DNA from: a virus | Strand: one strand, 5' to 3' | DNA: 36,052 bases | Virus record (IMG/VR): IMGVR_UViG_3300038701_000915 | Span: 1-36,052 of that record | Part shown: positions 2,740-36,049 of the stretch, piece after piece | Layout of the letters: every line of letters starts with the position of its first letter | Numbering within the stretch: position 1 is the stretch's first letter | Notes under the pieces: generated by a model | The model's input: the letters and a program-made list of their open reading frames with translations, nothing else | Database searches by the model: none | Told to the model about the DNA's origin: nothing | Program-made: the position numbers and the translations under genes

Positions 2740-2784
2740 TTGACACTATAAAATACAGGTAGTAAAGTAGGGGTACACAACGAA
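2740..2784 (+). promoter_or_regulatory. Early promoter with shared downstream block, copy 1
   Basis: TTGACA (2740-2745), a 17-base spacer and TAAAGT (2763-2768) form a sigma-70 type promoter. The -10 box and the next bases (TAAAGTAGGGGTACACAAC) recur almost exactly at two minus-strand sites (near 30141 and 35045). Conservation beyond the -10 box suggests an operator or phage-specific leader signal shared by early operons. Confidence 0.75.
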
Positions 2785-2800
2785 AACAGGAGTATAGACG

Positions 2801-3184
2801 ATGCCTTATATAAACAAATCAAGTATAACCGCGGCAATGAAAGCTTATAACTTAAGTTATCACTATGTGGCTAAGATGTGCGAACTAACATATTCAGAGT
2901 TTCACGGTATAATGTACCATAAGAGCAATAGAGTTTATAAAAAGAATTATGATGCTTTGTGCAAGTTCTTTGAGTTTAACGAGTTTGGTGGTGTTGTTAA
3001 AATTCCTCATATAGAAAGATTAGAGCAGATAAAAGCAGAGCGTAAGTTAGCAATTGTTGAGCAGATAAAAGCTAATGAAAGACGTAGATTAATTAAGTTA
3101 TTTATCACCTATAGCTTAATGTTTATGGGGCTTTGTGCTATAATAGCGTTTGGATATAATGATTTATTGGAGTGGTTAAAATGA
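2801..3184 (+). CDS. HTH-like protein with C-terminal membrane anchor
   Basis: Residues 1-60 look like a lambda-repressor-type helix-turn-helix (ITAAMKAYNLSYHYVAKMCE, then a second helix and a basic turn). Residues 68-95 are a charged helix, and about 98-118 form one hydrophobic segment (FITYSLMFMGLCAIIAFGY). This predicts a DNA-binding domain tethered to the inner membrane, in a 127-residue protein. It is the first gene after the early promoter at 2740, with AGGAG ten bases before the start. The HTH call is by pattern only. An alternative is a membrane protein whose N-terminus binds another partner. Confidence 0.55.
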   Translation: MPYINKSSITAAMKAYNLSYHYVAKMCELTYSEFHGIMYHKSNRVYKKNYDALCKFFEFNEFGGVVKIPHIERLEQIKAERKLAIVEQIKANERRRLIKLFITYSLMFMGLCAIIAFGYNDLLEWLK

Positions 3185-29124: not shown

Positions 29125-29367
29125 TTAGCCAGAGCCATAGCCGTAGCCAGAGCCAGAGCCATAGCCAGAGCCATCGCCAGAGCCAGAGCCATCGCCATCG
29201 CCATAGCCAGAGCCATAGCCATAGCCAGAGCCATCGCCATCGCCATCGCCATAGCCATAGCCAGAGCCATCGCCATAGCCATAGCCAGAGCCATAGCCAG
29301 AGCCATAGCCAGAGCCATCGCCAGAGCCATCGCCCCTCTTAAAAACTAAATCTCTAATATTGCTCAT
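29125..29367 (-). CDS. Gly-Ser/Tyr/Asp dipeptide-repeat protein
   Basis: After an 11-residue leader (MSNIRDLVFKR) the product is 34 Gly-X dipeptides plus a final Gly, where X is only Ser (13), Tyr (12) or Asp (9). The DNA is a perfect-phase hexamer repeat, GGC followed by TCT, TAT/TAC or GAT. No other residues intrude. It resembles silk-like or glycine-rich phase-separating sequences. It overlaps the upstream gene by 14 bases, with a weak ribosome site. The last Gly is followed at once by TAA. Function unknown. Confidence 0.65.
   Translation of the reverse strand: MSNIRDLVFKRGDGSGDGSGYGSGYGSGYGYGDGSGYGYGDGDGDGSGYGYGSGYGDGDGSGSGDGSGYGSGSGYGYGSG
29128..29334. repeat. Hexanucleotide repeat array
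   Basis: About 34 contiguous hexamers read GCC plus AGA, ATA, ATC or once GTA on the plus strand. Units differ at only two positions. Two other frames are also free of stops (Met-Ala-Leu-Ala type on the minus strand), a by-product of the repeat. Slippage could change length by whole hexamers without loss of frame. Confidence 0.95.
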
Positions 29368-29777: not shown

Positions 29778-30110
29778 TTACTCACTCCAATCTATATCCT
29801 GCCCGTTAAACGTCTGAAAGCTACCATCTTGGTTAAGACCAACAAACTCCCTCGTGTCTAAATCATCTAGCATATAGCTTAATGTGTGGTGGCTATATGT
29901 GGCAAGCTGCTCACCATCATAAGCGTGGTCATCTAACAAGATATAAATATAAGGTTCATTCGGACAAGACGTGTCAAACTCGTTAGTTATTTCTACAATC
30001 GTAAAATCTTCGTTATCATCAAAATATAGTGGCAACTCTTCCAAAGCTGACTCTTTACTTCTAAAAGCAAGCACTACTGTTAAATCTTCTGGGTGATATG
30101 CTATAAACAT
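29778..30110 (-). CDS. Very acidic early protein, candidate DNA mimic
   Basis: The 110-residue protein has 25 Asp/Glu and only three Lys/Arg, a net charge near -22, spread along the whole chain (for example FDDNEDFTIVE and LLDDHAYDGEQ). It is the first gene after an early promoter (30169) and AGGAG. Compact, strongly acidic early phage proteins are often DNA mimics that block restriction or nucleases (Ocr, ArdA-like groups), but I see no match to these families. An ordinary acidic protein with two ArdA-like stretches remains possible. Confidence 0.65.
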   Translation of the reverse strand: MFIAYHPEDLTVVLAFRSKESALEELPLYFDDNEDFTIVEITNEFDTSCPNEPYIYILLDDHAYDGEQLATYSHHTLSYMLDDLDTREFVGLNQDGSFQTFNGQDIDWSE

Positions 30111-30120
30111 TTTAATTACT

Positions 30121-30169
30121 CCTATTCGTTGTGTATCCCCACTTTACCACCTACAAACTATAAGGTCAA
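30121..30169 (-). promoter_or_regulatory. Early promoter with shared downstream block, copy 3
   Basis: On the minus strand TTGACC (30169-30164), 17 bases and TAAAGT (30146-30141) are followed by GGGGATACACAACGAATAGG. The -10 and following bases match the promoters at 2740 and 35073. It drives the acidic protein and the genes to its left. Confidence 0.75.
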
Positions 30170-31605: not shown

Positions 31606-31980
31606 TTACTCCTTATTTTCTATATAGTTAATTCTTTCTAATAGTTTTTTGTTTTGTTTCTTTAGTCGTTCAACCTCTTTTGATTCGTCTATAGTGTTTT
31701 TATTGTAATAAGATTCGCCTAACAAAGCCTCTCTTAGATTCTCGAAGCCTTGCTCTCGTTGTTGTTGTGTTGCCCCGCTGTTTCTTTGCCTCTGTATTCG
31801 CTCCCATTCTTGTTGCGCCGCTTGTGCTTCCGCTATTCTTTGTGCTTCTAATTGGTCTATATACGCTCTATAACCCTCATAATCTGGCGTGTTATGCTTT
31901 AATAAAAACTTGAAAATAACAATAATTATAATAAGCATTAACCATAACCACCAAAAAAAAACTATATCATTACTTGGCAT
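31606..31980 (-). CDS. Membrane-anchored coiled-coil protein
   Basis: The 124-residue protein has an N-terminal membrane span (about 6-27, IVFFWWLWLMLIIIIVIFKF), then a Gln/Glu/Arg-rich helix (about 40-70) and a second coiled coil near the end (SKEVERLKKQNKKLLERINY). AAGGAGTAAAC precedes the start, the same leader as the next gene. Cytoplasmic coiled coil anchored to the inner membrane is likely. Function unknown. Confidence 0.65.
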   Translation of the reverse strand: MPSNDIVFFWWLWLMLIIIIVIFKFLLKHNTPDYEGYRAYIDQLEAQRIAEAQAAQQEWERIQRQRNSGATQQQREQGFENLREALLGESYYNKNTIDESKEVERLKKQNKKLLERINYIENKE

Positions 31981-34870: not shown

Positions 34871-35009
34871 CTTTTTTGCCTCTTTGCAACATTACTAATA
34901 ACGCGTATTTCTCCGCACCTGTTAAATCCATCTTGTTAAGAAAACTCTTTTGAGCATCCTTGTTTTGCTTTTCAACTAGCTTAGTGGTTAGATCTATAAT
35001 ATTTGACAT
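34857..35009 (-). CDS. First gene of leftward early operon
   Basis: The 50-residue protein (MSNIIDLTTKLVEKQNKDAQ, KSFLNKMDLTGAEKYALLVM, LQRGKKDETN) is helical. It follows AAAGGAG and the early promoter at 35073. As the first leftward product it is likely made at once after infection. No family recognised. Confidence 0.55.
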   Translation of the reverse strand: MSNIIDLTTKLVEKQNKDAQKSFLNKMDLTGAEKYALLVMLQRGKKDETN

Positions 35010-35019
35010 TATCTTAACT

Positions 35020-35073
35020 CCTTTAATGTTCGTTGTGTATCCCTACTTTACCACTAACAATATTACCTGTCAA
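35020..35073 (-). promoter_or_regulatory. Early promoter with shared downstream block, copy 2
   Basis: On the minus strand TTGACA (35073-35068), 17 bases and TAAAGT (35050-35045) are followed by AGGGATACACAACGAACA. It matches copies at 2740 and 30169, and drives the recombination operon. Its -35 lies nine bases from the -35 of the opposite promoter at 35082. Confidence 0.8.
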
Positions 35074-35116: not shown

Positions 35117-35497
35117 ATGGCAAGAAAACAACAGCATGAAAGATTCAAAGTAAGACGACCATGTATAGCATATCTACGCAACATGATACGGCTACGTCAA
35201 TTAAAAAAGTGGGACGCAGTATACTGGGCATCACCGCCAGATCAAGGCGCTTTAACTATGCCACAGAAGATGGCAGCTAAGGCGGATGGTTATGAGGCGG
35301 GAGTCTTTGACCTTACTATAATAGGTGCTAGAAACGATTTAACTAAGGTCTGGTTAGTAGAATTTAAGTATGGCAAGAACACATACACAAAAGAACAAAA
35401 AGACGTTGTAGAGGCTTTTAATAACACTTTAGTAGATACTATACAGGTTAAGTCAATTGATGAGTTTCAAGAGTTTGTCGAAAATAACTTGAAATAA
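35117..35497 (+). CDS. VRR-NUC family nuclease, apparently leaderless mRNA
   Basis: The 126-residue protein (MARKQQHERFKVRRPCIAYL) has a compact VRR-NUC-type PD-(D/E)xK core: SPPDQGALTMPQKMAAKADG, GVFDLTIIG (D65), WLVEFKYGKNTYTKEQKDVV with E82, K84 and Q94. Such enzymes cut branched DNA (Holliday-junction resolvase-like) and suit the Rad52-SSB module. There is no ribosome site: upstream bases are ATATAATATTTAT, and the predicted transcript starts at ATG. A more distant upstream start (35033) would lie before the promoter, so is rejected. Confidence 0.82.
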   Translation: MARKQQHERFKVRRPCIAYLRNMIRLRQLKKWDAVYWASPPDQGALTMPQKMAAKADGYEAGVFDLTIIGARNDLTKVWLVEFKYGKNTYTKEQKDVVEAFNNTLVDTIQVKSIDEFQEFVENNLK

Positions 35498-35516
35498 TGG
35501 CACTTAATGTTATACT
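35489..35516 (+). promoter_or_regulatory. Promoter of candidate structured RNA
   Basis: TTGAAA (35489-35494), 16 bases and TATACT (35511-35516) overlap the end of the nuclease gene and point into a gene-free, hairpin-rich segment. Confidence 0.7.
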
Positions 35517-35522
35517 ATAGTG

Positions 35523-35652
35523 ATCTAAGATACTCCTTAGTCGGCTGGTACTTTACATGCGATTCGTTGTGGTTTCAAAAGCATTGTGCCAGCCATTCAG
35601 CTAATCACAATCTGTGACCAACTCCCCGACATTAGTGTCGGTGACATCTTTT
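35523..35652 (+). ncRNA. Candidate structured small RNA (about 130 nt)
   Basis: No reading frame of note lies here. Four successive hairpins can form: CTAAG/CTTAG (35525-35529 with 35536-35540); GGCTGGTAC/GTGCCAGCC (35543-35551 with 35586-35594, one G-U pair) with inner ATGC/GCAT (35557-35560 with 35581-35584) and a 20-base loop; TCACA/TGTGA (35605-35609 with 35613-35617); CCGACA/TGTCGG (35626-35631 with 35636-35641), then a short TTTT (35649-35652). A good promoter lies just ahead. Not a tRNA (main stem-loop only about 52 bases) and no Cas gene for a tracrRNA. Termination is weak, so the end is uncertain. Confidence 0.5.
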
Positions 35653-35690
35653 AGCTACACACTTATTGCATATACAATTATTTAGCTTAT

Positions 35691-36004: not shown

Positions 36005-36033
36005 AGTATAAACTTTTCTCTTGATCTTGTCAA
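36005..36033 (-). promoter_or_regulatory. Minus-strand promoter at right end
   Basis: TTGACA (36033-36028), 17 bases and TATACT (36010-36005), close to consensus. The -35 is within the 27-bp end repeat, so the left copy also has a TTGACA box on the minus strand. Confidence 0.7.
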
Positions 36034-36049
36034 TCGTTGGTGATAAGGT
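36023..36049. repeat. 27-bp end repeat, right copy
   Basis: Exact direct copy of 2-28. It is followed only by CTC, which does not match the bases after the left copy, so the window does not close base-perfectly on itself. Confidence 0.85.

Follow-up and report, generated by a model that had tools for sequence, protein, structure and literature searches.

Where antisense RNAs of phages are known to regulate phage genes, most of them control a single gene. The sar RNA of P22 and the OOP RNA of lambda have one main phage target each, and they owe their long complementarity to lying opposite that target. Both are phage-coded antisense RNAs acting on phage mRNAs, and sar blocks the initiation of translation (PMC12197685). 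Independent trans-acting phage sRNAs are also known: VpdS of phage VP882 and PreS of lambda are both described as Hfq-dependent, with phage and host mRNAs as the targets of VpdS and host dnaN as the target of PreS (PMC12197685). In the C4 RNA of phages P1 and P7, one loop lies partly over the ribosome-binding site, while the other pairs upstream and forms the variable part that determines specificity (PMC5320573). ACA motifs upstream of the Shine-Dalgarno (SD) sequence are translation enhancers, and the sRNA GcvB represses yifK and dppA by silencing them (PMC3879156). Because sar, VpdS and PreS are known, trans-acting phage sRNAs are an established kind of regulator; what is new in the RNA predicted here is the variant, in which a single RNA joins an unchanging anti-SD loop to an address loop and serves a set of leaders in three operons. 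Its pairing would be short, directed at several targets and made between separate loci, unlike that of sar and OOP, and it would act on a regulon with a shared leader, a feature absent from the descriptions of VpdS and PreS in the excerpted part of PMC12197685.

The window analyzed here, 36,052 nucleotides in length, is the whole of the IMG/VR phage record IMGVR_UViG_3300038701_000915 (G000). Its ends share an identical 27-nt direct repeat (2-28 = 36023-36049), and the genome is therefore probably complete or circularly permuted. Its genes include a P22-like portal, a Terminase_3 large subunit, Rad52, SSB and a DnaB-type helicase; a scan of contigs for the host using the nuclease gene that borders the locus returned a 13-residue match only. 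From the complementarity and conservation described below, we judge it likely that the locus encodes a trans-acting antisense sRNA of the phage that represses the translation of three early operons. The original prediction had proposed a phage regulatory RNA at this position; this proposal is now well supported, and genes 2801, 30110 and 35009 can be named as its likely targets.

The locus lies between a nuclease gene and a zinc-ribbon gene, as previously described. The two genes are convergent: a PD-(D/E)XK/VRR-NUC-like nuclease gene on the plus strand (35117-35497), whose match is weak and falls under the Pfam cut-offs, and a Cys-rich zinc-ribbon-like gene on the minus strand (35894-35691), which has no significant family match. 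The expected TTGAAA-16-TATACT promoter was confirmed at 35489-35516 on the plus strand, with the -35 at 35489-35494, the -10 at 35511-35516, 10 of 12 consensus matches and, in addition, an extended -10 TG. Promoter-like matches are abundant in this region (19 found against 9.4 expected), so that the match taken alone is weak. The promoter is retained at the equivalent place in a second phage, G001 (L002:4373-4400), where it reads TTGAAA-16-TGGTATACT; because the -35 overlaps the last codons of the nuclease gene, the -10 alone counts as independent evidence that the promoter is conserved.

The predicted small antisense RNA (35523-35652, plus strand) would start 7 nt past the -10, and its 3' end is uncertain. 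Folding recovered the four hairpins that had been proposed, including the one with nine pairs and an inner four-pair stem. SL1 (35525-35540) has a CUAAG/CUUAG stem and carries ATACTCCT on its loop side (35530-35537), antisense to SD sites. SL2 (35543-35594) has nine outer pairs (35543-35551/35586-35594), an inner AUGC/GCAU stem (35557-35560/35581-35584) and the loop UUCGUUGUG with the seed TTCGTTGTG (35563-35571). A further hairpin is CACA/UGUG, and a 3' hairpin, CCGACA-TTAG-TGTCGG (35626-35641), may be a weak terminator, with no T run directly after it. The stability of the fold (z = -2.64 against shuffles) is only moderately unusual: after correction for base composition, 21 of 1106 windows across the genome equal or exceed it, which places the locus in the top 2%.

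About 130 nt had been described as free of any credible gene, and the comparison with G001 bears this out: no small ORF is conserved, and a 15-codon ATG frame at 35557 has no counterpart there. A search of the locus for tRNA and tmRNA detected neither, as anticipated, and Rfam scans of the locus RNA at gathering and relaxed thresholds gave nothing credible. Two other suggestions about its function fared less well. The idea of a decoy that binds a host protein does not hold for CsrA, the usual candidate: a CsrA/RsmA decoy requires repeated GGA loop motifs, and the plus-strand RNA of G000 contains no GGA. A partnership with a neighboring protein found no support, and the pairing partners of the RNA sit elsewhere in the genome.

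A repeat search of G000 revealed several early-type promoters with a common transcript start, TTGAC(A/C)-N17-TAAAGT-GGGRTACACAACGAA. The 9-mer of the SL2 loop is the perfect antisense of CACAACGAA, and outside the locus the 36-kb genome contains exactly three copies of this element. All three lie in the leaders of TTGACA/C-N17-TAAAGT promoters, with an AGGAGT SD following 1 to 5 nt downstream. In the first target region (2740-2803, plus strand), a TTGACA-17-TAAAGT promoter is followed by the leader element at 2776-2784, the SD AGGAGTAT at 2788-2795 and the start at 2801; the product is weakly HTH-like (Pfam match E 0.1). The second (30108-30169, minus strand) has its promoter from 30169, the leader element at 30133-30125, the SD AGGAGTA at 30123-30117 and the start at 30110, and encodes an acidic protein with no function assigned. 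The third (35007-35073, minus strand) has its promoter from 35073, the leader element at 35037-35029, the SD AAGGAGT at 35023-35017 and the start at 35009; this small gene is the first in the Rad52/SSB direction and lies upstream of both.

In SL1, the loop (AUACUCCU) is the antisense of AGGAGU(AU) and of the SD sites of the three targets. The order of the contacts is correct for antiparallel pairing, since the mRNA presents the leader element and then the SD, and the sRNA presents the anti-SD and then the anti-leader. Across G000 and G001, the SD in each of the six leaders is complementary to SL1 over 7-9 nt. Complementarity of CUCCU to SD sites is partly generic, as a 7-nt match to SL1 is attained by 15 and 12 of 76 start regions. 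The SL1 loop (GAUACUCCUUAG) resembles the 3' tail of 16S rRNA (...GAUCACCUCCUUA). Three start regions without the leader element, at 31980 (minus), 31603 (minus) and 24544 (plus), have SDs (TAAGGAGTA, AAGGAGTAT) that are antisense to SL1 over 9 nt; their genes (membrane-type, Cro/C1-type HTH and a short ORF) are possible secondary targets, judged by this complementarity. A fourth early-type promoter (36033-35990, minus strand) gives a transcript that starts with the related AGCACAACAA. The promoter family as a whole, with either transcript start, offers a means of locating early operons across this phage clade.

To place the locus among relatives, we searched via the nuclease, the zinc ribbon, the exact SL1, Rad52, the portal and two early proteins. 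One other IMG/VR genome holds the sRNA locus, IMGVR_UViG_3300038701_000855 (G001, 39,164 bp); G035, a near-identical fragment of 21 kb, lacks it. A loose pattern search for the promoter and SL1 returned G001 and 18 contigs that lack SL2 and resemble chance, of 35 records searched with a covariance model for the 5' domain, G000 and G001 alone gave matches, and a nucleotide search in phages and plasmids gave nothing or chance matches. G000 and G001 have early, lysis-side and tail-fibre-like genes in common, and most of the structural module of G000 (terminase, portal, capsid) has no detectable match in G001. By its gene content, G001 is a mosaic relative, and the modular mosaicism is strong.

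In G001 the locus has the same two flanking genes. SL1 lies within 19 nt that are identical in the two phages, while the promoter spacer and the remaining RNA diverge. All nine outer pairs of SL2 hold in G001, two of them via G-C/G-U and A-U/G-U changes. The keeping of stems in homologues had been set beforehand as a check on the prediction, and in the single available homologue 14 of the 14 tested pairs are kept, two by one-sided changes; between G000 and G001 the outer stem shows only such one-sided changes, not classic covariation. In the inner stem, a change from U-A to C-G was left uncounted, as it depends on a manual alignment. The 3' part of the G001 RNA is unrelated to that of G000 and forms a GAGGGU/ACCCUC hairpin followed by TTTTTTT, which by eye is a terminator; our simple terminator scanner, limited to loops <= 8, omits it. 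The G001 RNA folds with z = -4.08 and has no Rfam match. These observations bear on the view that the locus is an ordinary spacer between convergent genes, with terminator hairpins and a chance promoter. Convergent genes do often have a hairpin terminator in common, and the fold is only in the top 2% noted above; set against this are the identical 19-nt hairpin, the kept second stem, the conserved -10 and the match of loop and leader in both phages, and we find the spacer explanation highly implausible.

The match of loop and leader has changed in concert between the two phages. The G001 orthologues of the three target genes (27533+, 33208+ and 22420-) again follow TTGACA-N17 promoters, and their leaders carry ACACAACAA where G000 has CACAACGAA. 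The G001 SL2 loop, UGUUGUUGUGUGUU, is perfectly antisense to the three orthologous leaders over 14, 11 and 9 nt. The exchange at the seed core is from G:C to A:U, and in both predicted folds the seed bases fall within the loop. When loops and leaders are swapped between the phages, the runs fall to 6-7 nt, against 9-10 for the matched pairs in G000 and 9-14 in G001; the energies of the swapped, non-cognate pairings are not negligible. Ranked by the length of perfect pairing among 76 start regions in each phage, the three target genes occupy ranks 1-3 in both, the third rank in G001 being tied at 9 nt. Ranking by energy with opening costs places the leaders 1, 2 and 3 in G000 and is weaker in G001 (1, 4 and 7).

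The complementarity of the RNA to these start regions elsewhere in the genome is short and exceeds chance. When SL2 of G000 was shuffled, the observed shortest run was equalled in 2 of 2000 cases; for G001, the observed summed runs were equalled in 0 of 2000, and the minimum-run measure was weaker (39 of 2000). None of the 57-nt genome windows used as pseudo-RNAs reached the observed sums (0/7061 in G000 and 0/7680 in G001). Because the leaders resemble one another, they are not three independent targets and are best counted as one type of target that was matched independently in each of the two phages.

A parallel change of this kind could also arise at the level of DNA, if CACAAC(G/A)A were the site of a phage transcription regulator, found immediately downstream of the +1 in early promoters and, reversed, once in the locus, where the hairpins would be incidental. 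A shift in the specificity of the regulator would alter all sites together; the element spans roughly positions +4 to +14 relative to the promoters, a zone in which operators are often found, and at the fourth early-type promoter (36033, minus) the transcript begins with AGCACAACAA far from any SD. We nevertheless regard this explanation as unlikely: it does not account for the antisense orientation of the copy in the locus, its position in the apical loop of a hairpin that both phages keep or the conserved anti-SD hairpin that precedes it, the site is not palindromic, and the length of the match differs by leader (14, 11 and 9 nt), as pairing predicts. It is more doubtful still that a real RNA from this locus is aimed mainly at host mRNAs, acting like GcvB on ACA-rich enhancers, and that the phage leaders simply share a common enhancer. 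The silencing of ACA enhancers upstream of the SD by a GU-rich sRNA seed is known (PMC3879156) and the G001 loop is GU-rich, but the loop follows the phage leader to the letter, matching CGAA in one phage and CAA in the other, and a host target would impose no such constraint.

For the antisense sRNA that we favor, the mechanism would run as follows. The RNA, probably transcribed from its own promoter, is predicted to fold into two 5' hairpins that are kept in G001. The SL2 loop, which contains GU, would pair with and cover the ACA-rich leader element of the three early-type mRNAs, and the SL1 loop would pair with the adjoining SD, 1-5 nt downstream; the complementarity of both loops to these sites is seen in the sequences. 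Acting together, the two contacts would keep the ribosome from entering, and the first gene of each of the three operons (2801, 30110 and 35009) would be repressed, with lower translation as the expected result. SL1 would thus be the constant contact with the ribosome site and SL2 the variable address, which changed along with the leaders in G001.

The two-loop complementarity (SL1 with the SD, SL2 with the leader) in G000 and G001 resembles that of C4 (RF01695) in its mode of action, not in membership: by analogy the RNA would work like C4, and the C4 covariance model gave no match at E<=10 in either phage, nor did C4 appear in the Rfam scans. RNase P releases C4 from a longer transcript, whereas the sRNA has its own promoter at 35489-35516, which argues against C4-style processing. 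The predicted targets, three dispersed early-type operons, also set it apart from C4. The likeness to GcvB (RF00022) lies in the repression of translation by a GU-rich single strand that pairs with an ACA-rich stretch directly 5' of the SD (PMC3879156); GcvB is a bacterial sRNA, and the phage sRNA differs from it by a second loop on the SD itself. The GcvB covariance model likewise gave no match at E<=10.

In the model proposed here, the sRNA would likely lower early expression as copies of its gene build up, or confer immunity to a second infecting phage. Whether the locus is an RNA-only early-gene switch in the full sense, with a constant anti-SD hairpin, an exchangeable address loop, joint control of every operon with the shared early leader, a C4-like logic that arose independently of C4 and was extended from a single operon to a regulon of three, and coevolution of address and leader, we consider evenly balanced. 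If true, a two-loop RNA that reaches a set of early operons via their common leader would do in compact form, as RNA, what an early-gene repressor does. Its design of a constant part plus an address, with a natural exchange of loop and leader between the two phages, makes the model directly testable by compensatory mutants. It also suggests a way to find such RNAs elsewhere, namely by searching a genome for intergenic hairpins with loops antisense to early leaders that recur in it.

Two further features were noted in the comparison of the two phages. The gene at 29125-29367 (minus strand) encodes GSGYGYGDG-type repeats with a 12/18-nt periodicity, and its counterpart in G001 differs in repeat number. 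Just beyond the stop codon of the zinc-ribbon gene, a non-coding 28-nt stretch outside the sRNA, CACTTATTGCATATACAATTATTTAGCT (35660-35687), is nearly identical in G001, with a blast match of 27/27.
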